64,000 nucleotides of DNA from Pseudomonas silvicola (lineage in GTDB: Bacteria > Pseudomonadota > Gammaproteobacteria > Pseudomonadales > Pseudomonadaceae): NCBI RefSeq assembly GCF_026651855.1, contig NZ_CP093281.1, positions 868,001-932,000 of the forward strand, read 5' to 3'. This document shows positions 19,485 to 57,963 of this stretch, piece by piece (position 1 is the first letter of the stretch; the number at the start of each line of letters is the position of its first letter). The notes under the pieces are model-generated. The model was not told where the DNA came from and made no database searches. It was given only the letters and a program-made list of their open reading frames with translations. The position numbers were made by a program, and so were the translations under genes.

Positions 19485-21676
19485 ATGTCTTTGATCGGCA
19501 GGGAATCAGGTATCCGCAAAACGTTCAGCGTTTCATTGTTGAGCTATGGCAGTACACGCCCTTCTCAACCCCACATTGGCGCAGGCTGCCGATACGACTC
19601 AGCAGGATCTGGTGGTCAATGCCACCACCAGTGACAGTAGTGATGACACTGACAAGCAGGACTATGCGGTGAAAACCACGCGAGCGGGCACCAGCTGCGC
19701 TACTCACCCCGCGCGATGTGCCGCAATCAGTGAGCGTGGTGACGCAGCAGCGTATGCAGGATCAGCAGCTACAAACTGTCACCGACGTGTTGAATAACAC
19801 CACTGGTATCACCAGCAATTTGGTGGATTCTGAACGTTCTGAATACTATTCCCGCGGCTTCAAAATCACTAACTTCACCTTTGATGGTATCCCCACTTCT
19901 ACGGGTGATAACTGGAACTACGGTGACGCGGCATCTGATACCGCCATTTATGATCGTATTGAAGTGGTACGCGGCGCGACAGGCCTGATGACTGGGCTGG
20001 CAGCCCCTCCCGCTTCGGTCAATATGGTGCGTAAACACACGCCGACAGTAAAGATTTTACTGGCTCGGTCAGCGCCAGCTATGGCAGTTAGATAAACAAC
20101 GCTGTCGCTGATATCGCCGGGCCGTTGAACAGTGAAGGTTCGCTCCGCGGGCGCGTGGTAACGGGTTATCAGGATCAGGACAGTTGGCTCGATCGCTATC
20201 ATAAAAATAAGAAGTTCCTTTATGGCGTGGTCGATGCGGATATCACCGCTAATACTATCCTTTCATTAGGTTATGACTACGAAAAGGCCGATACGCGCGA
20301 TCCTACCTGGGGTGGCTTACCAGATTTCTATAGCAACGGTTCTCTTACGCACTACAACCGCAGCCTGAACTCCGCCGCCGATTGGACTTACTATCACACC
20401 GAAATACAGAAGGTTTACGCCGATCTGGTGCATAACTTCGATAACGGCTGGAGCTTCCATGTGAATGGTACCTATGCCAAAAATACCTTTAGCGATAAGT
20501 TGCTTAACCTGTATAGCGCATTCCCTGACGAGAGTACCGGCGAAGGCGTAACCGGCTACGGCAGCCTGGACCGTGGTAAACGTGAACTGACCTCCGTTGA
20601 TGGTTACGCCAGCGAGCCCGTTGAGTTACTTGGCCGTCAGCACCAGTTGATGGCAGGCCTGAGTTACAGCCGCCAGCACAACCAGACTTACAGCCAGGAT
20701 GGCGTCACTGACCTGGATGAATGATATTACCGCCGCTGATATGGGGCCATTTAACAACTTAACTGGAACGGCAATCTTGCTGAGCCGCCTGCAGTGGCAA
20801 GGTTGGTATCCTGAATGCCATGATGTCATTCGCCAGAAGTCTGCTTATACCGCCGCGCGTATTTCATTTGGCCGATCCGCTATCACTGATTATTGGTGCT
20901 CGCTACACCGAATGGAGCACCAACGGCAGCAGCGGCGATATGATGACCCAGCACAACACCACGCCGTATGCCGGTCTGGTGTATGACATCAATGATACCT
21001 GGTCTGCGTACGCCAGCTACACGTCGATTTTCCAGCCTCAAACCTACCGCAATAGCTCAGGCCACTACCTTTCTCCGGTTACCGGAAAAAGCTACGAAAC
21101 GGGGTTAAAATCGACTGCCTGGTATGACGGTCGTTTGACCGCAACCTTTGCGGTATTCCGCATTCAGCAAAGAAAATGTCGGGACAGCAGAGGATGGCGT
21201 CTACGTTAATAACAGCAGCGAGCAGGCCTACACCGCCACTAAGGGCGCACCTTAAAGGCGCCGAAGTTTGAACTGAGACGGTGCGCTTACCGATAACCTG
21301 CAATTAACCTTCGGCGCAGCGCTATGCTAGCGCGTGATTCGGATGGTCGTTATAACCCTGATCAACCGCAAGAACCCAGTTTAGCTGTTCACCCGTTATC
21401 AGGTTCCAATGCTGCCCGACCTGACTATCGGCGGGGGTATTAACTGGCAGAACCGCGTATTTGAAGATGTGAGCGCGCCAGATGGCAGCACCCAGCGCGT
21501 GTATCAGGGAAGCTATCCACTGGCAAACCTGTTTGCCCGTTATCAGGTCACCAAACAGGGTTGCGGTGCAAGCTAACGTCGATAACTTATTCGACCGTGA
21601 GTACTACACCTATATGAACAACTATGTTTACGGTGAGCCGCGCAACTTCTCGGTTAGCGTGTCATATCAATTCTGA
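19485..21676 (+). CDS. fhuE: FhuE-like TonB-dependent siderophore receptor (frameshifted)
   Basis: Outer-membrane receptor for ferric hydroxamate siderophores such as coprogen or rhodotorulate. An N-terminal signal region leads to a mature start AADTTQQDLVVNATTS. The plug domain reads MPQSVSVVTQQRMQDQQLQT, YYSRGFKITNFTFDGIPTS and IEVVRGATGLMTGLAAPPAS. Barrel strands include SWLDRYHKNKKFLYGVVDAD, DPTWGGLPDFYSNGS, GRQHQLMAGLSYSRQHN, TPYAGLVYDINDTWSAYASY and TSIFQPQTYRNSSG. It ends VDNLFDREYYTYMN and GEPRNFSVSVSYQF with the terminal phenylalanine needed by the BAM machinery. Span about 730 codons, like FhuE (729). At least six indels interrupt it. It is Fur-controlled by the upstream box. Confidence 0.9.
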
Positions 21677-41297: not shown

Positions 41298-42651
41298 TTA
41301 ACGAATGTTTTTAGCCGGCCGCCAGCGCGCCGCCGGATGGCGATCGGGCAAACGGTCCTGCTGCTGGAATATTTTTTGCCGCAAGCTGCCAGGCTGATAG
41401 GCGGTTTTATAGCGGCCGCGCTGTTGCAACTCCGGCACCACCAGATCGATAAAATCGCGGTAGCTTTGCGGATTAAGGATGCGCGTCAGGTTAAAGCCAT
41501 CGATGTCGCCTTCATCGATCCACTGAATCAACGCATCCGCCACCTGTGAAGGATTGCCGACAATCAGCGGATAACGGCTGCCCATGGCGTGCTGCTCCAG
41601 TAAGCGACGGCGTGTCCAGCCGCTGAACGCCTTACTCACCGATTCAATGGCACGCGTGTCGCCGCTTTGGATAGGTTCATCCAGACCAAACGCCGCCAGA
41701 TCCAGGCCAATCGAACTGGAGAAGTGTGCGATACCCGCTTCCGGGCTGGCATATTCGAGGTAGCTGCGATGCTTTTCCTGCGCTTCGCGCTCAGTGGGCG
41801 CGACAATCACGCTGACACCCATAAAAATGCGCAGATCGTCAGCCTGGCGCCCTGCTGCCACCGCCGCCTGGCGCAAACGTGTGGACTGCTCACGCATCGC
41901 CGCCGGTGAGGCCGCATTGACAAACGAGCACTCAGCGTGGCGTGCAATTGGACGCCACGCGTCGATGAACCCGCCTGAAACAGCAGAGTACGTTGTGGTG
42001 AGGGGCTGTCAGGTGATAACCCTGCACCTGATAGAACTCGCCTTGATGGTTGATTGCATGGATCTTACTGGCATCGGCGTACAGCCTTTTGGCCTTGTAA
42101 GCTTGTAATGCATCATCCTGCCAGCTGCCTTCCCACAGTTGATAAGCCACATCGAGAAACTCATCGGCCTGATCATAGCGGCGGTCATGATCCTGTAACT
42201 GCCTCTGGCCCATGGCACGTGCTGCGCTGTCGAGATAGCCGGTGACAATATTCCAGCCAATGCGTCCCTGAGTGAGGTGATCGAGCGTCGAGAAACGGCG
42301 GGCAAACGGATACGGCGCTTCATAGCTGAGGTTAGCGGTGACACCAAAACCGAGATGCTGCGTGACGCTTGCCATGCCGGAGATCAGCATCAAAGGATCG
42401 TTGACCGGCAACTGGATCGACTCGCTGGCTGTCAAGCCGATGCCCTGCTGATACACATCGTAAACACCGAGAATGTCAGCAATAAACAGGCCGTCGAACA
42501 GGCCACGCTCCAGCAGCCGCGCCAGATCCAGCCAGTACGTCAGCGAATTGAAATCCACCGAACGATCGTCTGGATGCGTCCACATCCCATGATGGATGTG
42601 CCCGACGCAGTTCATATTGAACGCGTTGAGCAGAATCTGTTTCTGGCTCAT
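41298..42651 (-). CDS. LLM-class flavin monooxygenase, NtaA/SnaA/DszA family (frameshifted)
   Basis: FMNH2-dependent monooxygenase of the bacterial luciferase-like superfamily, about 451 codons. ILLNAFNMNCVGHIHHGMWT with HPDD, the family start, then FDGLFIADILGVYDVYQQGI, NDPLMLISGMASVTQHLGFG, APYPFARRFSTLDHLTQGRI and GWNIVTGYLDSAARAMGQ are hallmarks. HDRRYDQADEFLDVAYQLWE follows. After breaks near 42020-41900 it reads LRIFMGVSVIVAPTEREAQE and YPLIVGNPSQVADALIQWID. It likely oxidises an organosulfur or sulfone compound using reduced flavin. Its start overlaps the upstream SfnB stop (ATGA). Confidence 0.88.
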
Positions 42652-43845
42652 ATTGTCCCCGGCGCGGCGGCAGCACATCGTTGAGCAGATAGTTGCCAAT
42701 CGCCGGATATTTCCAGCGCACCGGATCGTGCAGCGTGTGAGTGCGCGCATTGCGCCAGTGGCGATCGAAATGATGCTCTCGCAAGCTGGCGCGCGATCCG
42801 CCAAGCTCAAACAGCAGATTGCTGGCTTCCAGTGACACTTCGGTGGTCCAGGCGCGCGCTTTCGCCACCTCTATCGAGGCACGCGCAACGTTTTCCGCCG
42901 TTGATTCATGCTGCGCGGCGTCTACCGCGTCTCCAGCAACCGCCAGCAATGCATCACCGGCACTCAGTCGTGACGCCAGCCGGCCAATACGATCCAGCGT
43001 GAGCGGATCTTCGCTGGCCTTTGTCACGCCGCTGTCCGGCCACGGCCGCGCACGTTCACGCACAAAGCTCAGCAGGTCGTTAAACGCTTCACGCGCGATA
43101 CCCTGATCCACTGCGGCATGCATAATCTGCGCGAACGGGCCAACGGTGGTCGGTCGCTCAAACGCGGTCTGAATGGCACCACATCTTCTGCGGCATTGCC
43201 ACGTCTCGGAACTGCATCGCTGCCGCTGCCGGTGGTGCGCTGCCCAAAACCGCTCCAGTCATCAATCACCGTGACCCCCGCTTGATGGCGCGGCACAAAC
43301 ACCAACTGCTCTTTGCCGTCATCGGCCAGCGCTAGCGTGGGGATACGATCGGCGAACAGCGCCCGTGGCATAAAACTTATCGCCATTGAGGCGCAGTCCC
43401 TCAGCTTGTTGGGCGATCGCCGTGGTGCGCTGGTGCGCGGGAAGGCGAGCTAAACTCCGCTAAGGCATTACCCAATGCACCCGGCTAATACTTCAGCGTA
43501 CAGTCGCTGCTGTTGCGCCTCGCTGCCGTTAATCCGCAGCACTTCCAGCGCATAAAAATGATTTTGAGGCACCTGGCCGATTGAGCCATCTGCTGCACTG
43601 AGAATCACGAAAATCTCAGCCAGTTCGGCGGTGGAAATGGCGATGCCGCCATGTTCTCGCGGCACGGTGATGGCACCGAGACCCGACTGAAAATAGCGCT
43701 GCAGTTCTGCATGCGGTAGCTCACGCTGGTGATCACGCTGAGCCGCACCGCTGCGGAAACGCTCAGCGAGAGCGTATGCGACATCCAGCGCCTGTACCGC
43801 GCTGCTGATACGCTCCGCACGCTGTTTGGCGGAAACCTGCGTCAT
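42648..43845 (-). CDS. sfnB: SfnB-family acyl-CoA-dehydrogenase-like monooxygenase, copy 1 (frameshifted)
   Basis: Flavin monooxygenase of the acyl-CoA dehydrogenase fold, in the sulfur-acquisition SfnB/DszC group, about 399 codons. The N-terminal helical part reads GAAQRDHQRELPHAELQRYF and LGAITVPREHGGIAISTAEL, then AADGSIGQVPQNHFYALEVL. The C-terminal half reads RPWPDSGVTKASEDPLTLDR and GGSRASLREHHFDRHWRNAR with THTLHDPVRWKYPAIGNYLL, the signature ending. Several indels fall at 43130-43480. It shares its plan with the next upstream gene, so the two arose by duplication. The stop overlaps the start of the LLM gene. Confidence 0.88.
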
Positions 43846-43854
43846 GAAGACTCC

Positions 43855-45055
43855 TTAAATCCAGGCATGACGCGCAGGCAGCACGTCGTTGAGGTAATAG
43901 TTTCCGATGGCGTGATGCTTCCAGCGAACGGGATCGTGCAGCGTATGGGTGCGCGCATTACGCCAGTGGCGATCGAGGCCGTGACGCAGCAGCGTGGCGC
44001 GACTGCCGCCCCATTCCAGCAGTTTCTCGCTGGCGCGCAGCGCAACATCAGTGGTGAGCACTTTAGCTTGCCACCGCATCGAGGCGCGCAGTTTTCAGCA
44101 GTGAGTGACTGCTGATCAACGCTATCAATCACGCGGGCGGCGCGGGCCAACAGCGCATTGGCTGCACTCAGCTCGGTGCTGATGCGCCCAACGTCGGCGA
44201 GGATATAGGATCGTCGGCATACGACTGACTCCCGCATCGACCCATGGACGGAACTGCTGCGCACAAACGCCAGCGCCCTCATCCAGCGCACTCCTGCGCG
44301 ATCCCGGCATCACGGGGTAGTTTTGAACGAAGCTGGAGACACCGCACCGCGCAGCGTGGGTTTATCGGCTGTAGGTAATGGCATGGTTAGCGCCGCCTCC
44401 ACCGTAACCTGCTGCAGTTCACCGTGCCGCTGGCGGTGGTGCGCTGTCCAATGCCTGACCAGTCATCAATAATTTCCACCCCGACAGCAGGCAGTGGAAT
44501 AAACGCCATCACCGGCTGCTCACCATGAATGGCGGTAGTGGCAAGCACGTCCGCAAACAGTGCGCCAGTGGAGTAGAACTTTTCGCCCGTCAGCCGCAAA
44601 CCTTGTGACGTTGTCACCAATCGGGCCTGCACATCTCGCGTGTGTTGGGTATTTTTTTCCGGCCCGCCATTACCCAGACGTTGACCCTGCACCACTTTGC
44701 TCAACAAAAACTGCTGCTGTGCCGCGCTGCCTTCGCCAAGAATGAATTGAATTAAACCAAAATGATTTTGCGGAATTTGTCCCAGAGAAGGATCGCTGGC
44801 TGAGATCACCCGAAAGACTTCCGCCACGGTCTGAAATGACAATCCGCCACCGCCATATTCGCGCGGCACACTAATACTACCGAGCCCCAGTTGGGTGAAC
44901 TGATTGAGCAGTTCCCGCGGATAAATACGCTGCTGGTCGCGTTCTATCGCGCCGCTCAACGCCAGCTCTGCCAGATGTTGTGCGGCGGCGATGGCCTCTG
45001 CATCTGTGGTTATCACCGCAGTGCGTGGCGTTAAGGAATCACTGTTTTGCGTCAT
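43855..45055 (-). CDS. sfnB: SfnB-family acyl-CoA-dehydrogenase-like monooxygenase, copy 2 (frameshifted)
   Basis: Paralogue of the downstream gene, about 400 codons and first in the operon. AERDQQRIYPRELLNQF-like helix, LGLGSISVPREYGGGGLSFQ, SDPSLGQIPQNHFGLIQFIL, TGEKFYSTGALFADVLATTA and DDWSGIGQRTTASGTV form the flavin-binding core. The end has EWGGSRATLLRHGLDRHWRN and HTLHDPVRWKHHAIGNYYLN. Indels lie at 44050-44430. SfnB proteins take part in using dimethyl sulfone and related sulfur sources under sulfate limitation. The two copies may act on different substrates or form a heteromer; the latter is speculative. Confidence 0.88.
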
Positions 45056-46791: not shown

Positions 46792-47013
46792 CAAAATAAT
46801 CCTTCTTGTGAACTATTCCTGAAGGTTATCGGCATCATATCGCCATGCTTTAACGTTCCCCTACGGTTAACGCCAGCTCCTGATAGGCCGCTGGCACTTC
46901 TGGCAAGCATCTGTCTGCCTAAACACAGCCGAACCCGCGCGTCTGATTTACGTTGTTGATCAACACATTGTCTACCGTACAGGTAGCCCCCCTTGAACAG
47001 AGGTAAAGTCGCG

Positions 47014-48389
47014 ATGAATAATCTGCATTACAAAAGCTTGCTGGAAATTGACGCCTGATTCAGTCTGGCGACATCACCTCGGTAGCGGTCACTGAATCAC
47101 TGTTAACGCGCATCGACACACTGGATAAGCGATCTGCACAGTTATTTCTACGTGATGCGCGACAGTGCGTTAAAACTGGCGGCAGAAGCGGATCAGGAAT
47201 CGCGGCAGGCCAACTGCGTGGTCCGTTGCACGGCGTGCCGATCGCGTTAAAGATCTGATCTGACCAAGGATGCGCCCACCAGCCACGGCATGATCATCCA
47301 CAAGGATCACTATCCGGCGGAAGACTCCAGTGGTGATCGTTTCCCGCGCTGCTGGTGCGGTGATCTCGCTGACGCAAACTGAAAGCGCTCTTGCCGATCA
47401 CCATCCGGAAATCACCCGCCCTAATAACCCCGGGGCAGCGCACCTGGACCGTGGTGTCTCCTCCAGCGGTTCTGGCGTCGCTACTGGCGGCTGGACTCTG
47501 TTATGGCGCGATTGGCACCGATACCGGCGGCTCCATTCGCTTCCCGTCAAATGCCAACGACTGACCGGCATCAAACCCACCTGGGGTCGCGTCACGCGCC
47601 ACGGTGCCTGTGAGCTGGCGGCGTCGCTCGATCACATTGGACCGATGGCACGCTCTGCAGGCGATGCCGCTGCGATGTTGCAAGCCATTGCCGGGCGCGA
47701 TGATAAAGATCCGACCTCCAGCAGCGAGTCGGTGCCGACCACCTGGCGTTGATGACGCGCGGTGTCAGTAAATGCGCATCGGACGATGCGCTGGGCGTTG
47801 AAAAGGTGGATGCGGAAACCCGTGCCGCGCTGGAATCAGCGATAGCTACCCTGACATCGCTGGGTGCCACCTTCGTGGATATCACCGTACCAGACACGGA
47901 AAAGCCGCCGCCGAGTGGAGTGCGCTTTGTGCAGTGGAAACCGCCCTGGCGCATGAAGAGACCTATCCGGCGCAGAAAGATCAATATGGTCCAGGATTAT
48001 CTGGTCTGCTGGATCTTGGCCATCAGGTCACCGCATTGGAGTATCAGCGCCTGCTGCTGAGCCGTGCGGCACTGCGTGGCGATATTTCTGCCCTGTTCAG
48101 CAAAGTGGATTTGATTCTGGCCCCCGCCACCGCTTATGCCGGATTAACCTGGGACACCATGACCCGTTTTGGTACCGATCAGGCACTGTTTAACGGCGTA
48201 TTGCGCTATACCAGTGCATTTGACGCGAGCGGGCATCCGACCATCACCCTGCCATGTGGCATGACTTCCGCCGGTGCACCCATTGGTTTCCAGTTAGTGG
48301 CGGCCCATTTCGATGAAACCGCAATGATTCAGGGCGCCTGGGCTTATCAGCAAGTCACTGAATGGCATAAAAAACATCCTGCTATCTAA
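47014..48389 (+). CDS. Amidase signature-family amidohydrolase (frameshifted)
   Basis: Hydrolyses carboxamides to acids and ammonia, about 458 codons. The start MNNLHYKSLLEID has AGAGG upstream. The catalytic lysine lies in GVPIALKD near 47235-47260. The glycine/serine-rich signature reads VSSSGSGVAT and, after an indel, IGTDTGGSIRFPSNAN, which contains the cis-serine and nucleophilic serine positions. GLTGIKPTWGRVTRHGACEL, ASLDHIGPMARSAGDAAAML and, at the C-terminus, HPTITLPCGMTSAGAPIGFQ are typical. The partner in this island is nitrile hydratase, so it probably takes the amide produced there to the acid. It is followed by an AraC gene on the same strand. Confidence 0.88.
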
Positions 48390-48502
48390 AGCTGCTTATT
48401 TTGGCCGCACTGCATTGCGTGCGGCCTTTTCATGTCGATATGGCCTGAAACTTGCTTGGTTTGTTGTGATTTCACCCTTTTCGCCAGTTTAGGGATGTTG
48501 CC

Positions 48503-49426
48503 ATGAAAGAAACGTTCACCACGGATCACTTAGATAATCGCCACCGCTTTGATGCCTGGCGCGATGCCGTCTGTTCACGCTTGATTAATGCCGAAGCGCG
48601 TCAGGTTAATGCCGGTACTTTTTCCGGCAGCTTTGGTTATTCCATGGGCCATGTCGATATCGCACACCATGTGTCCCAAACCGCGCTGGTGTGGCAACGC
48701 ACCACCGAGTGCATTCGCCGCCATCCTAATCATGATTTTTATCTCGGCTACGTTCGTTCCGGCATCGGGACATTGCGGCAAAACGATAACCAGTCACGGG
48801 TGAGCGCAGGGGATGTGGTGATTTACGATGCCGCAACGCCCTTTGATTTCGCCATGGATAACGTGGCCATCAATATTGTGCATTTACCCCGTCAGATGAT
48901 TGAAAAAGAGGCGCCAGCGATTGCCCGGCTTGCGGGGAAAACGCTGGATCTTAGTCGTCCCGGAATGACCTCACTCAAGCAATTACTGGAAGAGGCATTT
49001 GTCTTTAACGCGGAGAGTGAGAACACCTTTCTCGCGGAACAGTTCGCCAATACGTTGATCAATATGATCTCGGTGAGTGTCAATTTGCAGAAAGGCGATG
49101 ACGCACTAAAACTGGATCTTTACCGCGGGTGGTGAGTTATTTACGGCAAAATCTGCAGGAAGCGGACCTGACTTCATGGCGCAATTGCCAATGCCCATCA
49201 TGTTCACCGCGCACCATCGCGTGTTGCTGCACACGGCACTACGCCGATGAATTTTGTCTGGCAGGAGCGCCTGCTGGCGTGTCGCAAAGCGCTGGCCGAA
49301 GGTAAAGCGCAACATCACTCAGGTGGCGCTGATCACGGCTTTAGCGATATGTCGCACTTCAGTCTCGCTTTCCGCAAGGCGTTTGGTTACACCCCAAGCA
49401 GTCTGCTGCGTCAAAGCGAGGTGTAA
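48503..49426 (+). CDS. AraC-family regulator, NitR-like context (frameshifted C-terminus)
   Basis: AraC/XylS regulator of about 307 codons. The N-terminal sensor domain (AraC-binding-like) is intact over 210 residues: DNRHRFDAWRDAVCSRLINA, YLGYVRSGIGTLRQNDNQSR, SAGDVVIYDAATPFDFAMDN and FLAEQFANTLINMISVSVNL. After indels near 49130-49300 the HTH region reads RTIAR-type helix, ACRKALAEGKAQHITQVAL and HGFSDMSHFSLAFRKAFGYT with PSSLLRQSEV. This group regulates nitrilase, amidase or nitrile hydratase genes (NitR) and other catabolic genes. It is downstream of the amidase and upstream of the nitrile hydratase block, so it is a likely inducer-sensing activator. Confidence 0.85.
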
Positions 49427-49468
49427 CGGCGCTTTGTTTTACCCTTTCTGCAACTGACTGATCACACG

Positions 49469-50021
49469 TCAGCAGTAAATCAGTGCTGCTGCGTTCATCG
49501 CTTCGGTACGCATAAAGCGATATGCCCGACTCATCCAGACCGAAAGTCTGCATCAACACGCCTTTAGCCTGTGCCAGTCGCTCATTTCTCATTTTACGCT
49601 GTTGGCGAGCCTGCAGTTCACCCCGCAACTGGACATTCTGCTGGGCGGATTGCCAGGTGCCGATGATCTGCACAATCAAGGCAAAGGGATTAAGTTCTCG
49701 CTCGGCGATAGCAGCGGGTTGCAGTTTCATTAACAGCGGGAACAAGCGCGCATCATGGCAGTTCGCCAGGGCAATCACCGGTGTGTGATGCTGTTGCAAT
49801 GAACGAAACAGCGGCGTTAATACCGCCTCGTGGTGATTTTCAATCGCCACCAACAGCAGTTGCGCGTCAGCCGGACGTTCGGCGACAGGCGGCCAGCTGT
49901 GTTGGGCGTGACAACCGATTTGCGTCAGCGAGGCACAGAACGCCCGCACGCTTTGCGAATCAGGATGGAAAATATGCAACCGCACACCCGCAAGCGTTTT
50001 CAGCAAAGATGGCTCATTCAT
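49469..50021 (-). CDS. AmiR/NasT-type ANTAR-domain antiterminator
   Basis: RNA-binding regulator of about 184 codons. The N-terminal pseudo-receiver domain reads LAGVRLHIFHPDSQSVRAFC, DAQLLLVAIENHHEAVLTPL and HHTPVIALANCHDARLFPLL. A coiled coil follows (WQSAQQNVQLRGELQARQQR), then the ANTAR helices MRNERLAQAKGVLMQTFGLD, with the tail, after one indel near 49500, reading YRFMRTEAMNAAALIYC. The conserved ERAKG-type helix contact is ERLAQAKG. As in Pseudomonas AmiR, it is expected to melt a terminator in an mRNA leader when its amide-sensing partner releases it. It is the last gene of the urt operon, 128 bp after urtE. Confidence 0.88.
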
Positions 50022-50149
50022 GTTTCACCCGTGTGCATTCTGAAGTTCGAAGCATCACGTTAGAGGAGTCGGGCAATCGATGCTGTGTTGCTGCTGCCGG
50101 TGCTGGTGTCAGGCGAGACAGGGCATGCACCCCGTCCCGCTTCCACGAT

Positions 50150-50854
50150 TTAAGCGTGAAACCCTAAAAACTGCTCCGCCACACTGGCACTCGGCTGGGT
50201 GCGCGGATCAATCTGCTGCACGATCTGCCCTTTTTCGATCACATGAATCCGATCCGACAGCGCATACAGAAACTCGATATCCTGCTCCACCAGAATGATC
50301 GAGATATCCATTTCATGGCGTAACCGCTGCAACGTCTCAATGATCTCCTCACAGATATTGGGCTGGATGCCTTCGGTCGGCTCATCCAACAATACCAGCT
50401 GTGGTTGCCCGCAGAGACAGCGCGCCAACGCCAGCAGTTGCTGCTCGCCGCCCGAGAGCGCCCCGCCCGGTTGAGCCAGTAAACGTTTCAGGCGCGGGAA
50501 AATCTCCAGCATCTGCTCAATGATCTGACCCGCGCGCGAAAAGTGCTTCACGCAGCCCATGCGCAGGTTCTCTTCCACAGTCAGCAGCGGGAAGATTTGC
50601 CGCCCTTGCGGCACAAAACCGATGCCGGCCGCCGCCCGCTGGTGGGCCTGATAGCGCGTGATATCAATGCCGTTGAGCGCGATAGTTCCCTGCCAGGCGG
50701 GCAGCTCTCCCATGATGGTGCGCAGCAGCGTGGTTTTTCCCATGCCGTTACGTCCTAACACACCGGTGAAGGATTTCGCCCCGACAAACAGCTCGGACAA
50801 GTGCAGGACCGGAATTTTGTTGTAGCCCGAGACCATCTCTTTTATTTCAAGCAT
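50150..50854 (-). CDS. urtE: UrtE-type ABC ATPase of amide/urea importer
   Basis: ATPase of a branched-chain/urea/amide-type ABC importer, 234 residues, uninterrupted. Walker A GRNGMGKTT; GFVPQGRQIFPLLTVEENLR; signature ALSGGEQQLLALARCL; Walker B LVLLDEPTEGIQPNICEEII; H-loop SIILVEQDIEFLYALSD. The PTEGIQP block is characteristic of UrtE. The start overlaps the urtD stop by eight bases. With UrtD it powers transport of short-chain amides or urea. Confidence 0.95.
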   Translation of the reverse strand: MLEIKEMVSGYNKIPVLHLSELFVGAKSFTGVLGRNGMGKTTLLRTIMGELPAWQGTIALNGIDITRYQAHQRAAAGIGFVPQGRQIFPLLTVEENLRMGCVKHFSRAGQIIEQMLEIFPRLKRLLAQPGGALSGGEQQLLALARCLCGQPQLVLLDEPTEGIQPNICEEIIETLQRLRHEMDISIILVEQDIEFLYALSDRIHVIEKGQIVQQIDPRTQPSASVAEQFLGFHA

Positions 50855-51578
50855 GTTTAATCTCCAGATTGCCGAGATACGCCTCTTTCACCAGAGGATT
50901 CTGCGTCACCTCGCGGAAAGTCCCCTCCGCCAGCACCGCGCCCTGATTAAACACCGTGACCTGCTGCGCGATCATGCTGATGAACTCCATATCGTGCCTC
51001 CACCACCACCACAGTGCTCTGCTTGATTGATCGCTTTAATCAGCTGGGCGGTTTTACGCACTTCCTGATGCGTCATGCCTGCGGCGGGTTCATCCAGCAA
51101 CACCAGTTGCGGACGAGAAATCAGGATCATCCCTAACTCCACCCACTGTCGCTGCCCGTGCGCCAGTTCAGAGAGCACGGCATCCTGATGATCTTCCAGT
51201 CCGATATCGTGCAACACCTGATCAATTGCGGAGGACAGAGCTGCTCTCGCCAGCGTATTGGCTGCCGCCTGCCAAGCAGATTCTCCCGAACACTCAACCC
51301 TTCAAAGACGCTCGGCACCTGAGTTTTGATGCCGATACCCAACCGGGCAATATCCCACGGGCGTTTGCCGGAGATCACTTGATTGCGGTAGCGGCACTCA
51401 CCGCGCGGGCGTTACCTGACCGCTGAGCATTTTGAAAAAGGTGCTCTTTCCTGCGCCGTTCGGGCCGATCAGGCAGCGAAGCTCCTTCATGCAGGTGAAA
51501 TCCACCTCCTTCACCGCATGCAACACCACCAAAACTGACGCCATTTTGCGGTGTTTCCAACAGGACTGTTGCCGTCAT
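50847..51578 (-). CDS. urtD: UrtD-type ABC ATPase (frameshifted)
   Basis: Second ATPase, about 243 codons. MTATVLLETPQNGVSFGGV is the start; the Walker A region is out of frame near 51450. ISGKRPWDIARLGIGIKTQV with PSVFEGLSVRENL is a UrtD hallmark, followed by LHDIGLEDHQDAVLSELAHG and QRQWVELGMILISRPQLVLL with DEPAAGMTHQEV (signature and Walker B). The C-terminus across an indel is VVVEHDMEFISMIAQQVTVF and LVKEAYLGNLEIKHA. Ten bases separate it from urtC. Confidence 0.92.
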
Positions 51579-51587
51579 GGTTTCACC

Positions 51588-52596
51588 TCACTCACCGATG
51601 CGGGTTGCAGGCAGCGTGTTCGGACGCTTGCGTCGCCACAGCCGTTGTAGGTCGGTTAAAATGCCTCCGGGATCAGCAGCACAAACACCAGAATCAGAGC
51701 ACCAGATTGACATCCACTGTTTGCTGCGCGCCCAGCCGCGTCACCATCCACTGCAACAGCAACACAGCCTGATCACCGGACCGATCAACGTGCCGCGCCC
51801 CCCGACAATCACCCAAATGATGATCTGTGCCGACTGACTGATACTAAACACCCCGGGGCTGACAAAGGCACCCCAGTTGACGTACAGGCATCCCGCTAAC
51901 CCGGCAATCGCCGCGCCAATGGCAAAGGTGACGAGCTATGTGCCGGCACGTTGTAGCCAAGCAGCCCTGCGCGCTGTTCGTTTTCCCGAATGGCCACCAC
52001 CGTTTTGCCAAAGCGGCTGAGCAGCACAAACTTCAGCAGCGCATAGCAGAGCGCCAACGCACCGGCGGTCACCATAAAGATCGCCTCCGGTGACAAAATG
52101 GCATCTGGCTGGAATGGCATGTTGAGTGTCGGCACTGACGGAATACCATTGAACCCACTCCAGCAGCGCTTCGCCGATATGGTATTCACTGCCCGAGGAG
52201 TTTACCCAGTTAAACAGCACCAGGCTCACGGCTAACGTAATCGCGCCGAGGTACACACATCACCTGACGCCACCGTAGAAGATCACGTAACCCAGCAGCA
52301 GCGAGAACAACGTTATAAGAGAACGCCATCACCACGCCCATGTGGAGTCGCCCCAATTAATGGGCCACAGATGGCGTAGGTGTAGGCCCCCAGCCCAAAA
52401 ATGCCGCCTGACCAAAACAGAGGATGCCGCCGTAGCCCCAGATAAACGCCAGGCTGAGTGACAACAGTCCCATCACTAAAAACACCGTAATAGAGAGCAA
52501 GGTGTACAGCTCAATCACGCCAGAGAGCCAAAACGCCAGCAGGATCAGCATCAGCGCACTGAGCACAATGCGCACTTTTTCCGAAAACAGTTTCAT
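51588..52596 (-). CDS. urtC: UrtC-type ABC permease (frameshifted)
   Basis: Inner-membrane permease, about 336 codons. MKLFSEKVRIVLSALMLILL, then WLSGVIELYTLLSITVFLVM and GLLSLSLAFIWGYGGILCFG with QAAFLGWG match the LivM/UrtC N-terminus. Later blocks are WRYLGAITLAVSLVLFNW-like and LALCYALLKFVLLSRFGKTV with VAIRENEQRAGLLGYNVPA. The C-terminus is LTDLQRLWRRKRPNTLPATR. Many breaks lie between 52360 and 51650. Its ATG overlaps the urtB stop by one base. Confidence 0.9.
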
Positions 52597-53462
52597 TACA
52601 GCGATCTCCTGAAGAAGCGCCCGGTGATGCCCTGCGGCAGCAGACGCAGCAGTACAATGGCACTCAACAGCAGCGCCACCGCACCAAACACCGGCGTGGA
52701 GAGATAGGTGACTAATTGCGAAATGGTGCCAAACAGCGTGGAAGAGGTCAGCGTGCCGGCGATGATGGCGCTGCCGCCGCCAATCACCGTGATAAAGGCC
52801 TTGGCAATAAAGCTGACGCCGATAGTCGGTATCACGCCGGTGATCGGTGCCAGCAGCGCGCCACCCAATCCGGAGAGCGCGGCTCCCAGACCGAAGGTCA
52901 GGCTGTAGATTTTACCGGGATTGCTGCCTAGCGCCGCCGCCATGCGCGCATTCTGCATAGTGGCACGTGCGCACAATCCCAATGTGGTGAAGCGCAGCAA
53001 CAGCCACAATGCCGCCACCAGACACTGCGCAAACACAATCATAAACAGCGAATAGCCGCTGGTGCTGTAACTTCCCACATTCACGCTGGGCAGCGGCGAG
53101 CTGATGCCCAGCGTAGTGTTGCCAAACAGCATGGTCGCGGCACCGATCAACGCCGCAGACTAACCCCGCACAGCATGGTGCTCGATCATCCTGCCGTACA
53201 GATGACGAATAATGACGCGTTCAATCACCATGCCAAACACGCCAACACAAATCGGCGCAACCACCAGCATGGAGATCCAGATCGGCACGCCAAAGTGGTT
53301 AGTGGCCATAATGGCGCTGTAGCCGCCCAGCATCATAAATTCGCCGTGCGCCATATTGACGATTTTCATCATGCCAAACACCACCGCCAGCCCCAGACTC
53401 ATGATCACCAGCACCGCGATGGCATTCAGCACTTCGATGCCATAGATAACCGACAGATCCAT
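52596..53462 (-). CDS. urtB: UrtB-type ABC permease (frameshifted near 53155)
   Basis: Inner-membrane permease of the LivH/UrtB type, about 289 codons. MDLSVIYGIEVLNAIAVLVI, then SLGLAVVFGMMKIVNMAHGE with FMMLGGYSA is the family start. After an internal break near 53155 it continues NVGSYSTSGYSLFMIVFAQC, FTTLGLCARATMQNARMAAA and LGSNPGKIYSLTFGLGAALS with GLGGALLAPI, and ends LLPQGITGRFFRRSL. An in-frame TAG at the break is best explained by two compensating indels. Confidence 0.92.
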
Positions 53463-53474
53463 TAGCGCCTCCCG

Positions 53475-54706
53475 TTACAGCTCAATCTGATACTGTTTGG
53501 TATCACGTGGATTTTTCTTCAGGTCGCACACCATGGCGGTATCAACCGGTGCCTGGTTGGTGAAGGTTTCCAGAATTTTCATCTGATGGTTCTCCACCTC
53601 GGCAATGTGTACGTCCAGCGAACAGTGATGCGTGGTGGGATCGACACTCAGCTGACCTTGGCGAGGTCAGCGTGACGCCCGACTCCAGCGCTTCAATCAC
53701 TTTCATGCGGTCGATATCACCTGCCTTGCGCAACCCCTTCAGCCCAAATCAACATGCCCTGGATACGCGCCCATCGCCAGATCGCTGATGTACATGTCGC
53801 CGTAACGAGCATGGAATTTATCGACAAACGCTTTGTTCTCGGCAGACGGAATTTCCTGCATGTAGTTCGCCGCCACCAGAATGCCGTTGCTCTCTTCCGC
53901 GACAGAATGATGTTCATTACCGCCGCCGAATACGGTAGAAGCGATGGGAATCTGCCGCTCATGCCTGCCGCATGCCATTGGCGGTAGAATGAGATGTGCG
54001 CCCCGCCCACCAGCGCTGACCACACCATGTCTGGTTTAGCGCTCTGGATTTTTGAAATGGCGGCACCGAAGCCGTGACATCCAGCGGAAGAACTCCACCG
54101 TCATCACTTCACCGCCGTTGTCACGCAATCGACCTCTTCACCCATGACGAAACAATCTGGCCGTAGTTGTAATCCGCCGCCAGTTAAGCACATAGACTTT
54201 CTTGCCCCCACTTCTTCATGGCGTACGGCACCAGTTTTCCTCCACGGTTTGTGCGGGCGTTGAGCCTGGAAGAGAAGTAGTTGCGGATCGCAGACGCCAC
54301 CTTCATACTGCGCAGGATAGAAATAGAGCGAACGGAAACGATCCAATACGGACGAATCACCTCGCGCGACGCAGACGTGATGCCGCCGTGCACCACTGCA
54401 CTTTGTCTTCAGCGCGGCCTGGGCGATTGCGCGTAAAGCTGCATGTTAGATTGCGCATCATAATTGATGATTTGCAGCGGTCGGCCTAACAATCCCCGGC
54501 TGCGTTGATCTCATCTGCGGCTAAGTTGATGGCGTTGGACATCGGCTTGCCATAAATATCCAGCCCGCCTGACAATCGAGAATGCTCGCCACTTTGATGG
54601 CGTCTTTACTGTCAGCGGCGAAGGTGAATTTTGGTGCTACCCCCGCAGCCAGGCCCAATGCTGATACGGCAGATCCCTGAAGAAATGAACGACGACTAAT
54701 AGCCAT
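53475..54706 (-). CDS. urtA: UrtA/FmdD/AmiC-type substrate-binding protein (frameshifted)
   Basis: Periplasmic ligand-binding protein of the amide/urea receptor family, about 410 codons. A Tat signal peptide is clear: MAISRRSFLQGSAVSALGLA with AGVAPKFTFAAD. The mature protein starts KDAIKVASILD, and after indels shows ENKAFVDKFHARYGDMYISD and AMGAYPGHVDLGLKGLRKA-like blocks; the C-terminus is DTKQYQIEL. The family includes UrtA (urea), FmdD (short-chain amides) and AmiC, the amide sensor that controls AmiR. No urease genes are visible and amidase and nitrile hydratase flank it, so amides are the more likely ligands. Confidence 0.9.
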
Positions 54707-54838
54707 AGCACCCTCGAATGAAGTAATTGAATAAATAGAGTTGAGTATTCCGGAACCGGAAGAGATAAACGGATACACAGACAGCGCTGTCATGCTAATG
54801 CGAGAAAAGGGCCACAACATTGGGGCACGTTTTTAGAT

Positions 54839-54856
54839 TAGCAATAAGCGGGCCAA
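54839..54856 (-). promoter_or_regulatory. Sigma-54 (RpoN) promoter of the urt operon
   Basis: On the minus strand TTGGCCCGCTTATTGCTA matches the consensus YTGGCACGRNNNTTGCW at 15 of 17 positions, with exact GG-N10-GC spacing. The GG (-24) is at 54853-54854 and the GC (-12) at 54841-54842. Transcription would start near 54829, about 123 bases before the urtA ATG. Confidence 0.85.
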
Positions 54857-54994
54857 AAACATTCATGTTCATTGGAAATTATTCTTTATTCCCGCCGTTG
54901 GTGCCACTCAACGAAAATTATTAACGCATTTAATCCTGACTAACATTAATTAACTCCAGTTACCTGGCCTTACTGCACTTAATTAAAGCAATCA

Positions 54995-55009
54995 GCACCA
55001 TCAAGGTGC
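54995..55009. promoter_or_regulatory. NtrC (NR-I) binding palindrome
   Basis: GCACCATCAAGGTGC is a perfect GCACC-N5-GGTGC palindrome, as in the glnA enhancer. It lies 141 bp upstream of the -24 element of the urt promoter, a usual enhancer distance, and 136 bp upstream of the nitrile hydratase start. Confidence 0.85.
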
Positions 55010-55144
55010 ACTTAAATCTTTTAACACTGCGCTGTCCGCTCAAACACAGCGAATGGCAGCATTAACAAAGATGTAATTACCAGAAGCGTTAACGTCTCTC
55101 ACACACTCATTCATCTCATCAGTAAAAATCTTTGAGGAGACATT

Positions 55145-55728
55145 ATGTCGGACCCTTCGGTATTACCTTCGGATGCCGCGTTAAAGATCCGTGCTATCCA
55201 ATCCCTGTTGGCAGAAAAGGGATTTCTGAGTCAGGAGGTCACTGACACCATCGTGGATTATTTCGAAACCAAAGTGGGACCCCGCAATGGTGCGCAGGTG
55301 GTGGCGAGAGCCTGGCGCGATCCCGCCTTCAAAGCACGCTTACTGGAAAATGGCCGCGAGGCGGTGAATGAACTCGGCTTCTCCGGCTTTGAAGCCGCTA
55401 CCCTGCACGTGCTGGAGAATACCGACAGCGTGCACAACGTAGTGGTGTGCACGCTTGCTCTTTGCTACCGTGGCCGGTGCTGGGCTTTGCCGCCCATCTG
55501 GTTTAAATCGACAATCCCTATCGTTCACGTGTGGTGATTGATCCCCGTGGCGTATTAGCAGAATTTGGCACTGAAATTCCGGCCAATAGGAGATTCGCGT
55601 ATGGGACAGCAATGCCGAAATCCGTTACTTCGTGCTGCCTCAGCCCCTGCTGACAGGAAAACAAGAGTGAGAGCGAGTTGGCCGCATTGGTCACACGCGA
55701 CTCCATGATCGGCACACGCACGCTTTAA
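55145..55728 (+). CDS. nthA: Nitrile hydratase alpha subunit, cobalt type (frameshifted)
   Basis: Metal-binding subunit of nitrile hydratase, which hydrates nitriles to amides. About 195 codons, with GAGGAGA upstream of the ATG. ALKIRAIQSLLAEKGFLSQE, TKVGPRNGAQVVARAWRDPA and FKARLLENGREAVNELGFSG are the alpha-subunit core. The metal claw follows HNVVVCTL; moving one T (lost before GC and gained in TTT at 55450-55462) restores C-T-L-C-S-C, where threonine at position two indicates a non-corrin cobalt centre. The rest reads LPPIWFKST, RVVIDPRGVLAEFGTEIPAN, EIRVWDSNAEIRYFVLPQ and ELAALVTRDSMIGTRTL. The cysteines become sulfinic and sulfenic acid in the mature enzyme. Confidence 0.93.
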
Positions 55729-55741
55729 GCGGAGAAACACC

Positions 55742-56398
55742 ATGAATAATATCCACGATTGCGGCGGCATGCAGAATTTAGGTCCAATCGAGATTGAAGC
55801 TGATGAACCTCATTTTCACAGCCAATGGGAAAAAGATATTTTCGCCACCACGCTGGTGTTCTTTATGAGCGGAAAGATCGTGCTGGATGACTTCCGTTAT
55901 GAAATTGAGAAAATGTCCGTAACAGAGTATCTGCAATCCAGTTATTACGAGCACTGGTTATTTTCCATTGAGCAGTTGATGTGTAAAACCGGCGTATTCA
56001 CCGAACAAGAGTTACAGCAGCGTCTTACCGAACTCTCCGCCTGGAGGATACAACATGAATACTTATTCACCGCAGGGCTACCGGATTTAATTACTACACC
56101 GCCCAATTACCATCGTGATGTTGAGATCGCACCGGAATATCAACCGGGTGACACTACATGCAATAAATTTAAACTGGGCTGGAGTCATATTCGCGCCGCG
56201 CTGGCGTGCGGGTAAAAGGGCGTGATTGTTGCCAACTACGGTGCCTGCGTATTTCCCGATGCGCTGGTCGCAGAGCAACAGGAGAAACCGCAGTACGTCT
56301 ACCTGGTGAAATTCAGTGCCGCCGAGTTGTGGGGAGAGAATAGCGAGAATTTCTGCGTCCACCTGAGCGTCTGGTCCGACTATTCAGGGCAGATGTGA
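55742..56398 (+). CDS. nthB: Nitrile hydratase beta subunit (one frameshift)
   Basis: Partner subunit of about 218 residues. MNNIHDCGGMQNLGPIEIEA followed by DEPHFHSQWEKDIFATTLVF is the diagnostic N-terminus. DDFRYEIEKMSVTEYLQSSY and YEHWLFSIEQLMCKTGVFTE continue without a break. After an indel near 56210 the SH3-like C-terminal domain reads RGVIVANYGACVFPDALVAE, KPQYVYLVKFSAAELWGENS and CVHLSVWSDYSGQM. It starts 13 bases after nthA. Confidence 0.93.
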
Positions 56399-56400
56399 GG

Positions 56401-56874
56401 ATGCTGCGCATGGATGAGTTAAACGCGATTATTGCTCAGGTGAAGGAGGCCGATCCCGCCTTTGCACAACCCTGGGAAGCCGATGCGTTTGTCATCGCGG
56501 TGGCCCTGTCTCAACGCGGCTACTTTAGCTGGCCACAATGGGTGGAACAATTTGCTCAGGAGATTAACGACTTCCCGCAGCGCAAAGGATGAAAACGCGC
56601 ACACGGCCTACTATCGCCAATGGCTGAGCTTGGAAAAGATCCCTGTCACAACATCAATTGATTCCGATGTCCGAATTCGCTGATTCGTGAAGAGCAGTGG
56701 CGCCAGGCTTTCCTCAACACGCCCCATGGCAGCCCGGTGGATCTCGCTGCCGCCAGCTGTCCGCCCGACCACCCGCATGATCATGACCATCATCACCACC
56801 ATCATCATCATCACGACCATCACGCCGCGCAGCCACTGATCCAACCGCTGCGCGTCTTTGCCGCTGTCGGGTAA
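56401..56874 (+). CDS. Nitrile hydratase activator/accessory protein with histidine-rich tail (frameshifted)
   Basis: Metallochaperone-like activator of nitrile hydratase maturation, about 157 codons. MDELNAIIAQVKEADPAFAQ, PWEADAFVIAVALSQRGYFS and WPQWVEQFAQEINDFPQ match the accessory family, which is homologous to the beta-subunit N-terminus. After indels near 56585 and 56660 it reads WRQAFLNTPHGSPVDLAAAS, then a tail of about 20 residues made almost only of His and Asp (56770-56825). Such a tail can bind cobalt. In known cobalt systems the activator delivers the metal by subunit swapping. It is three bases after nthB. Confidence 0.88.
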
Positions 56875-56889
56875 TTCTCAGGAGTCTTT

Positions 56890-57963
56890 ATGAAGGTGCT
56901 GAGTCATAAGCAAAAAGGCGCTGCGGTGATTGGTGGCGCCATGCTGTTTAATTTGCTGGTCATCGGTACGGCGTTGGTGACTTTTCAGCATTCACCGGCC
57001 GCGCTGAGTGTCGCGCTGTTAGCCTATCTGTTTGGTTTGCGCCACGCCGTCGATGCCGATCATATCGCCGCCATTGATAATGCCACGCGCAAGTTGAGTA
57101 ATGAGGGCAAGAGCCCGTTTACCGCAGGTATGTGGTTCTCACTCGGCCACGCTTCGGTGGTGCTGATCGCCTGCCTGATATTCGCTTTGACCACGCAACC
57201 TTTGCAGCAGATGTTTCCCGGCGTGAAAGAGATTGGCGGCATGATTAGCACACTGATCTCCGGTGCTTTTCTGCTGCTACTCGCCTGGACTAACTCCCGC
57301 ACTTTGTGGCAATGTATTCGCCAACGTCAGCGGTTGCTGCGTGGCGATGCAACGCGGGTCCCGCAGGAGAGCCATCACCACGGCGTGCTCACCCGGCTAT
57401 GCGCGCCACTGTTTCGCATGGTGAGCAAAAGCCATCATCTGTTCCTCATCGGTTTCCTGTTCGGCATTGGCTTTGATACCGCAACCGAAGTGGCGATTTT
57501 CGGTATGTCCGCCAACCACGCAGCGGGTGGCGAAGCGATGCTGCACATCATGTTGATGCCGCTTTTATTCACTGCCGGCATGATGCTGATCGATACCACC
57601 GATGGCGTCATGATGTTGAAACTGTATCGCTGGTCGCAATTCGATCCGTTGCGCAGCCTCAATTACACCCTCGCCATTTCATCACTCTCAATTGTGGTGG
57701 CCTTCGCGATTGGCTGTTACGAAGTGTCGACGGTGTTACAACTCAACACGCTGATCTCCCCTGCGCTGGATGGCGTGATGAAGCAATCATCAGTCAGATG
57801 GGTTGTGCTGATTATAACGTCCATTGGTGTATGGCTGCTGTTTTCACAGCGGCTAAGCGTCGGCGCTGTAGTACAATGGCGGCTTTGTGCCGCCCTGTTT
57901 CTGGCATCAGCTCGTGTTAGACCCCCGTCAGGTTCAACATCCTGTCAAAAAAGCCTTTCCTGA
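56890..57963 (+). CDS. NiCoT-family cobalt/nickel permease (NhlF-like)
   Basis: Eight-TM secondary transporter of the HoxN/NixA/NhlF family, 357 codons. The signature RHAVDADHIAAIDNATRKL holds the H-x4-D-H metal site. FTAGMWFSLGHASVVLIACL, HLFLIGFLFGIGFDTATEVA and LMPLLFTAGMMLIDTTDGVM are also diagnostic. It has an in-frame histidine cluster QESHHHGV in a loop. The last 50 codons may be frame-shifted near 57790. It lies 15 bp after the activator gene, and RBS AGGAG is present. In Rhodococcus the NhlF protein supplies cobalt to nitrile hydratase, and the same coupling is inferred here. Confidence 0.92.
   Translation: MKVLSHKQKGAAVIGGAMLFNLLVIGTALVTFQHSPAALSVALLAYLFGLRHAVDADHIAAIDNATRKLSNEGKSPFTAGMWFSLGHASVVLIACLIFALTTQPLQQMFPGVKEIGGMISTLISGAFLLLLAWTNSRTLWQCIRQRQRLLRGDATRVPQESHHHGVLTRLCAPLFRMVSKSHHLFLIGFLFGIGFDTATEVAIFGMSANHAAGGEAMLHIMLMPLLFTAGMMLIDTTDGVMMLKLYRWSQFDPLRSLNYTLAISSLSIVVAFAIGCYEVSTVLQLNTLISPALDGVMKQSSVRWVVLIITSIGVWLLFSQRLSVGAVVQWRLCAALFLASARVRPPSGSTSCQKSLS

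Follow-up and report, generated by a model that had tools for sequence, protein, structure and literature searches.

The 64,000-nucleotide stretch of DNA analysed here (the window) covers positions 868001–932000 of contig C2 (NZ_CP093281.1) in a three-contig, 8.65-Mb assembly filed under Pseudomonas silvicola, and contains a gene island that joins an amidase, two regulators, a Urt-type importer, a cobalt-type nitrile hydratase with its activator and a nickel/cobalt permease (Table 1). Gene coordinates in the window were mapped from Erwinia sp. S63 by homology and, because the reading frames of the window are damaged (in our reading probably by sequencing or assembly error), the biology described below is read from relatives. 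An initial annotation, made from the letters of the window, had named these genes in this order with two hydratase genes and had extended the block to position 57963. All of the named genes were recovered by homology in that order, but the hydratase genes are three, not two, and 11 of the 13 island genes show alignment gaps relative to S63 (only UrtE and nthB1 are gap-free). The permease at the end is present and belongs to the NicO family PF03824 (225.2 bits against a cut-off of 27.7 in the window frame), under the cut-off of the HoxN/HupN/NixA subfamily (276.1 versus 333.05 bits); its homology stops at 57870, and the remaining frame to 57963 is an unrelated tail.

Table 1 Genes and candidate regulatory elements of the island, in window coordinates
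Feature	Position	Strand	Remarks
Operator-like motif CTGTC-N6-AACACAGC upstream of amidase	46911..46929	+	Exact in window; aligned in relatives
Amidase, amidase-signature family	47014..48389	+	PF01425 in S63 protein; frame broken in window, open in relatives
Sigma-54-like promoter TGGCC-N6-TTGCT before araC	48441..48456	+	In 7 of 7 aligned upstream regions
AraC-family regulator	48503..49426	+	Frame broken in window
AmiR-type ANTAR antiterminator	49440..50021	-	Window: AmiR_N readable, C-terminal ANTAR not; S63: both
UrtE-like ATPase, 234 aa	50150..50854	-	Open reading frame, no gaps versus S63
UrtD-like ATPase	50847..51578	-	Frame broken in window
UrtC-like permease	51575..52596	-	Frame broken in window
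UrtB-like permease	52596..53462	-	Broken in window
UrtA-like binding protein	53475..54706	-	Weak Tat-signal match; frame broken in window
Candidate ANTAR target RNA P2 (second hairpin) core, hexaloop A1..G4	54780..54791	-	Criteria from the available part of PMC3369931
Candidate ANTAR target RNA P1 (first hairpin), hexaloop A1..G4	54811..54826	-	Conserved in relatives
Sigma-54-like promoter TGGCC-N6-TTGCT before urtABCDE-amiR	54840..54855	-	GGCC-N6-TTGC before urtA in 11 of 11 sequences
NtrC-like palindrome GCACC-N5-GGTGC	54995..55009	+	Looser form in all 5 hydratase-bearing loci
Operator-like motif CTGTC-N6-AACACAGC upstream of nthA	55032..55050	+	Exact in window; aligned in relatives
nthA, cobalt-type nitrile hydratase alpha	55145..55728	+	Frame broken in window
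nthB1, nitrile hydratase beta N-terminal half	55742..56043	+	No gaps versus S63
nthB2, nitrile hydratase beta C-terminal half	56055..56417	+	Frame broken in window
Histidine-tailed nitrile hydratase activator	56395..56874	+	Frame broken in window; TIGR03889 above cut-off in S63
NiCoT-family nickel/cobalt permease	56890..57870	+	PF03824; end altered in window

A search for relatives with the hydratase alpha fragment of the window yielded 60 loci. The annotated gene order is present in five named genomes (alpha identity 84–91%), those of Erwinia sp. S63, Pantoea sp. alder81, P. rwandensis, Candidatus P. formicae and Chimaeribacter coloradensis, and all listed island genes are open in four of them; the exception is urtB of P. 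rwandensis LMG 26275 (L024:6427-8326), where a frame change close to the end gives a protein of 251 instead of 289 aa. The initial annotation had named a lack of the arrangement in related genomes as a ground for refuting it, and with these five genomes that test fails. A FepA-type TonB-dependent receptor gene lies between the NiCoT gene and an esterase gene (L010:12939-15239) in four of the five relatives; it is missing from Chimaeribacter, has no match in the window and was not counted as part of the system. The amidase–AraC–ANTAR–urtEDCBA genes also occur on Pantoea plasmids, and in the four that were opened (SS70, SOD02, SO10 and At-9b; the X85 plasmid was left out) no hydratase stands between urtA and the next gene. 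Among 295 genomes from the family of S63, nthB2 had matches in nine, two of the island type (89–100% identity) and seven at 34–46%, and the UrtA-like protein was matched in 14 (E value of 1e-60 or better), four of them at 83% identity or more. Two genomes with UrtA-like proteins at this level, G245 and G224, are not among the nine with nthB2 and hold the bare amidase–urt core. At 49.4%, nthA is also matched piecewise, in two parts, by eight plasmid records from Enterobacter, Hafnia, Kluyvera and Citrobacter that list no gene there; the nthA-like copy may be broken, but the plasmid gene table is incomplete. No paper on the island arrangement was found among those listed by our searches of the open-access literature (at most 20 papers per search, and mostly unrelated work in one of them), and the available part of PMC8955678 does not mention Pantoea.

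The hydratase departs from the standard form in its beta subunit, which is encoded by two adjacent genes in all five relatives (in the window, an indel runs the two together). The two products cover positions 1–97 (nthB1) and 130–224 (nthB2) of the beta profile, which places the break in the inter-domain linker, and each stays under the cut-off of TIGR03888, the model for a single two-domain beta (109.5 and 89.9 bits, cut-off 152.2), so that the enzyme is a split-beta variant and not the standard form. Both halves align with solved cobalt hydratases. The alpha subunit of S63 passes the nitrile hydratase model TIGR01323 (274.4 versus 249.85 bits) and falls below the thiocyanate hydrolase gamma model TIGR03887 (173.1 versus 291.45 bits), and its residues 7–191 align to 3qxe_A. 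The sequence CTLCSC, which we take to be the cobalt-type metal motif, is read in the alpha subunits of S63, formicae, rwandensis and Chimaeribacter and is disrupted by the frame break in the window. Arginines R52 and R157 presumably correspond to the aligned FRYEIE and HTRLPRY stretches of the beta halves. Both arginines are named in the available part of PMC7193024, where the gene orders seen include the four-gene thiocyanate hydrolase type and no hydratase with two beta genes. From these features, alpha, beta1 and beta2 are predicted to form a three-chain enzyme that hydrates nitriles.

The same alpha–beta1–beta2–activator order was found in Pseudomonas asturiensis, two Kiloniellaceae, Ancylobacter, a Rhodospirillales bin and four genomes of the family sample. 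In a tree of 57 alpha rows, most rows of the alpha-first split type gather in a single group whose support is weak (84/91) and whose 14 members comprise 12 split and 2 fused forms, and two further split rows lie outside it; a single origin of the split beta was not adopted. In a further genome of the family sample (G295, locus L099), a split-beta hydratase is immediately preceded by nitrilase-like, AmiC-like and AmiR-like genes and has a sigma-54-like site upstream, a second pairing of the split hydratase with an antiterminator. The Pseudomonas contig of the assembly, C1, has hydratase genes of its own (within C1:3221000-3240999) with an unsplit beta, near genes for CbtA-like, AmiC-like and AmiR-like proteins and an acetamidase/formamidase-like gene; the names in this stretch were assigned by eye, except for the hydratase and AmiC-like matches.

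With the solved cobalt-type nitrile hydratases 3qxe and 1ire (presumably from Pseudomonas putida and Pseudonocardia), the island shares the alpha alignment, the CTLCSC motif, both beta domains and a downstream activator gene, but it differs by its two beta genes and by the order alpha–beta1–beta2–activator–NiCoT. The AnhD/AnhE/AnhA enzyme of Streptomyces canus, described in the available part of PMC7329996 as a three-subunit hydratase that matures without an activator protein, is three-chain like that of the island, to which the island adds a separate histidine-tailed activator and a permease. A hydratase is also linked to an amidase in the aldoxime dehydratase–amidase–nthA–nthB–accessory–CbtAB operon of Pantoea (P. 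vagans pPag2 and At-9b pPAT9B04; L112 and L113). That operon, however, has an unsplit beta, CbtAB in the place of NiCoT, an aldoxime dehydratase and no Urt-type importer, and its alpha is 52–53% identical to the alpha fragment.

The importer has the five-gene layout and the protein families of the UrtABCDE urea transporter. The UrtA-like protein stays under both NCBIfam urea cut-offs (354.2 versus 494.8 and 252.2 versus 492.75 bits), and the UrtB-like protein is likewise under its NCBIfam urea cut-off. According to the available part of PMC10392092, eight residues are strictly conserved for urea binding, a W120A mutant is unable to bind urea and Asn246 bonds the urea amino group. In all ten UrtA-like proteins aligned, five of these residues are kept (Ser122, Tyr141, Gln144, Glu146 and Tyr190) and two are replaced, Trp120 by Ile and Asn246 by Val; the column of Ser274 is poorly aligned. 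Because of the bond made by Asn246, its replacement by Val fits an amide. By alignment, Val also stands at this place in AmiC (1pea) and in two of four AmiC-like proteins (the other two have Ile), and the UrtA-like protein encoded on C1 retains both Trp and Asn. No urease scored above the cut-off in any of seven genomes, two of which gave weak sub-threshold matches. The suggestion of the initial annotation that the Urt-type system serves amides is thus favoured, and a urease, whose locus elsewhere it had named, together with a clustering of the importer with urease-linked UrtABCDE, as what would overturn its reading, scored above the cut-off in none of the seven. A published precedent for an amide-linked Urt-type importer is provided by the formamidase-linked urtABCDE genes in PMC13209695, the available part of which describes amiE–fmdAB–urtABCDE without amiC or amiR in Pseudomonas veronii and an amiE–amiC–amiR–ABC operon on a Klebsiella plasmid. 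Two formamidase-linked Urt-type loci seen here (L097 and L098, with AmiC-like and AmiR-like genes) share with the island the amide-linked importer and the Val at the place of Asn246, but their amidases are different, and neither a hydratase nor an AraC match was seen in them.

S63, alder81, formicae and rwandensis each have exactly two genomic copies of the operator-like motif, one upstream of the amidase and one upstream of nthA, 8.2 kb apart, and a reversed-pattern control gave 0, 0, 1 and 1 matches in these four genomes. In Chimaeribacter the motif stands before nthA and at one other place (control 0), and the amidase is preceded by a version that differs in one base. When up to two mismatches were allowed, the window contained 5 matches against 1.62 expected, a number reached by 3 of 100 shuffles. 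The copy at the amidase is also found in the hydratase-free SS70, SOD02, SO10 and G245 and is altered in At-9b and G224. Two sigma-54-like elements lie in the window, where 0.21 were expected and a single shuffle in 100 gave as many, and the NtrC-like palindrome, about 100–155 bp upstream of the element before urtA, has one match (0.09 expected; 9 of 100 shuffles also have one). We take the -24/-12 consensus as the mark of a sigma-54 promoter and the palindrome as that of an NtrC site. With both at hand, control by sigma-54 and NtrC appears plausible, the -24/-12 pattern alone being common.

Between the urtA promoter and its start codon (122–140 nt), two hexaloop hairpins were found in 11 of 11 sequences. 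Across these sequences, the invariant positions of each hexaloop are A1 and G4 only, the two that matter for ANTAR binding according to the available part of PMC3369931. As amiR is the last gene of the urt run, AmiR would control its own operon. A third hairpin is present in all 11 leaders. A switch that hides the urtA ribosome-binding site was rejected, as the site stays largely paired on folding whether the two hairpins are present or not, and Rfam gave nothing at the gathering score in loci L010, L012, L013 and L005.

The initial annotation had placed the island in an Enterobacterales genome, which suits contig C2 but not the assembly. The latter, with a contamination estimate of 8.04, combines C1, a Pseudomonas chromosome of 7.6 Mb, with C2, which is Erwiniaceae-like, indel-rich and 952,764 bases long. 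Only one rpoB match was obtained in the assembly; it is on C1 and shares 90% identity with Pseudomonas asturiensis, so the chromosome is that of a Pseudomonas; against five Enterobacterales genomes, identity is 73–76% over the aligned parts. From window position 20005, C2 is collinear with Erwinia sp. S63 over about 14 kb at 92% identity, and the plasmids that best match the island stretch come from Pantoea and measure 0.74–0.93 Mb. C2 would therefore be a plasmid from a co-cultured Erwiniaceae member or, with lower probability, a very large replicon gained by transfer. Between window positions 44001 and 64000 and S63, we counted 213 indels (151 deletions and 62 insertions) in 17.7 aligned kb at 94.4% identity, compared with 6 indels in 20.4 kb between S63 and alder81 (93.0%) and 4 in 18.7 kb between formicae and rwandensis (96.2%). 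Upstream of the island, positions 41301–45055 hold genes for two SfnB-type sulfur-acquisition oxidoreductases and an LLM-class flavin oxidoreductase, which are frame-broken and have counterparts on related Pantoea plasmids. In a 20-kb stretch of C1 round its own hydratase, most genes read through, and one porin-like gene seems to lie in two frames.

Building on the genes, their order, the split beta, the conserved DNA and RNA motifs and the substituted residues, all obtained by computation, we propose, with a probability of roughly 0.7, that the island forms a regulon for the use of nitriles and amides under nitrogen limitation. In nitrogen shortage, phosphorylated NtrC and sigma-54 RNA polymerase would transcribe araC and the urtABCDE-amiR operon, and AmiR would allow transcription to pass its own leader by way of the two-hairpin RNA. 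The Urt-type ABC transporter would then import small amides, and AraC, acting at one shared operator, would turn on the amidase and the nthA-nthB1-nthB2-activator-NiCoT operon. With cobalt supplied by the NiCoT permease and inserted into alpha by the histidine-tailed activator, the three-chain hydratase would convert nitriles to amides, from which the amidase would release ammonia. Each activity, each substrate and each contact of protein with DNA or RNA in this scheme is predicted. The nitrogen-scavenging role proposed in the initial annotation gains from the sigma-54-like and NtrC-like sites, the ANTAR target RNA and the motif shared by amidase and nthA, all of which are sequence features. 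More tentatively, and with somewhat less than an even chance in our estimate, a two-tier nitrogen regulon of Enterobacterales (NtrC with sigma-54, then AraC with the ANTAR antiterminator) drives a little-described lineage of cobalt nitrile hydratases that have three chains and yet retain a metal activator of their own. Coupled to it would be a Urt-type importer specific for amides and set apart from the urea system by the replacement of the Trp–Asn pair, which recognises a urea amino group; as the island has no AmiC, the signal for the antiterminator may come from the binding protein of the transporter itself.

Several observations weigh against a nitrogen-limitation regulon of this kind. The sigma-54 pattern occurs 20–30 times per genome (7–10 times for its reverse), so the sites are suggestive by position and conservation and not by rarity. 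Matches to the operator pattern also fall within the ANTAR genes of At-9b and SOD02 and, with one mismatch, within that of the window; the assignment of the shared motif to AraC is a guess, made because the two are close together. In the leader, no clear U-tract was seen after the third hairpin in the 11 sequences, so that no canonical terminator could be recognised. Covariation in the leader is slight, with one pair changed on both sides, a result reached by 253 of 500 shuffles, and it was dropped as support because the changes are too few. A loose two-hairpin scan gave 1 to 4 further matches per 10-kb locus, so that the motif counts by place and conservation only. An AmiC gene is absent from the island, and no second binding-protein gene appears among the listed open reading frames of the five relatives. 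The amidase–AraC–AmiR–urt core, moreover, stands without an island-type hydratase in six cases (the four Pantoea plasmids, G245 and G224); the hydratase would thus be an add-on to the amidase–importer core, or have been lost from it, and the self-contained single block of the initial annotation is not one unit. Two more such observations, on urea carboxylase and on the placement of indels, belong to rival explanations.

Urea carboxylase scored above the cut-off in all seven genomes, which leaves urea possible as the importer's substrate and qualifies the case for amides. The transporter could then be a urea importer that feeds the urea carboxylase/allophanate pathway of the host, with the amidase and hydratase as neighbours that have other jobs; the urea-binding proteins among its solved relatives and the five of eight pocket positions kept agree with this. 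It is nevertheless unlikely, given the replacement of Trp120 and Asn246 in every UrtA-like protein, the loss of urea binding in W120A, the scores of UrtA and UrtB under the urea cut-offs and the presence of amidase and AmiR beside the importer in every opened relative with a UrtA-like protein at 83% identity or more (they are absent from two distant ones, at 55%). The host genera are plant- or insect-associated and indole acetic acid is known to be formed by way of a hydratase and an amidase, so the island might instead process plant-derived nitriles such as indole-3-acetonitrile, for auxin formation or detoxification rather than nitrogen supply. The amidase does score with the indoleacetamide hydrolase model, but under its cut-off, as it is under those of all 25 families listed, and the sigma-54-like and NtrC-like sites together with the importer point to nitrogen supply, which makes a plant-nitrile pathway rather improbable.

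That the split beta belongs to a thiocyanate hydrolase, whose beta halves likewise reside on two chains (2dd4_A and 2dd4_B, both matched), is hardly credible: the alpha subunit clears the nitrile hydratase cut-off and misses that of the gamma subunit by more than 100 bits, beta1 aligns to 2dd4_B only at an E value of 0.21, and in the island operon alpha comes first and an amidase is linked to the hydratase. A decayed, non-functional relic in the window would account for the indels in 11 of 13 genes, and the one-base indels do not cluster in long homopolymers (of the 92 deletions of one base versus S63, 35 lie in runs of at least 3). However, the window differs from S63 by about 12 indels per kb at 94.4% identity, whereas S63 and formicae, diverged to 80%, differ by 70 indels in 18.3 kb, or about 4 per kb; five neighbouring genes beyond the island (two SfnB-type, LLM, hypothetical and lactonase) are broken likewise, and the short regulatory motifs of the window are exact. 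On these indel statistics, gene decay was judged very unlikely.

The initial annotation did not notice that beta is split, that the sequence is corrupted or that the assembly is that of a Pseudomonas, whereas the arrangement that it described is real and conserved, and its guess at the purpose was a good one. The parts and principles of the island are known already, and their combination is new; the relatives add a beta in two halves next to a separate activator, an operator-like motif common to two promoters, promoters of the nitrogen type, a leader of the ANTAR kind and a binding pocket with changed residues. A hydratase whose beta is naturally split and that has an activator would be useful for studying subunit assembly during metal insertion, and the loss of Trp120 together with Val at the place of Asn246 is suggested as a sequence criterion that may separate amide from urea importers. 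Nitrile hydration, mostly studied as an industrial catalyst, would thereby be tied through a testable circuit to nitrogen control in plant- and insect-associated bacteria.

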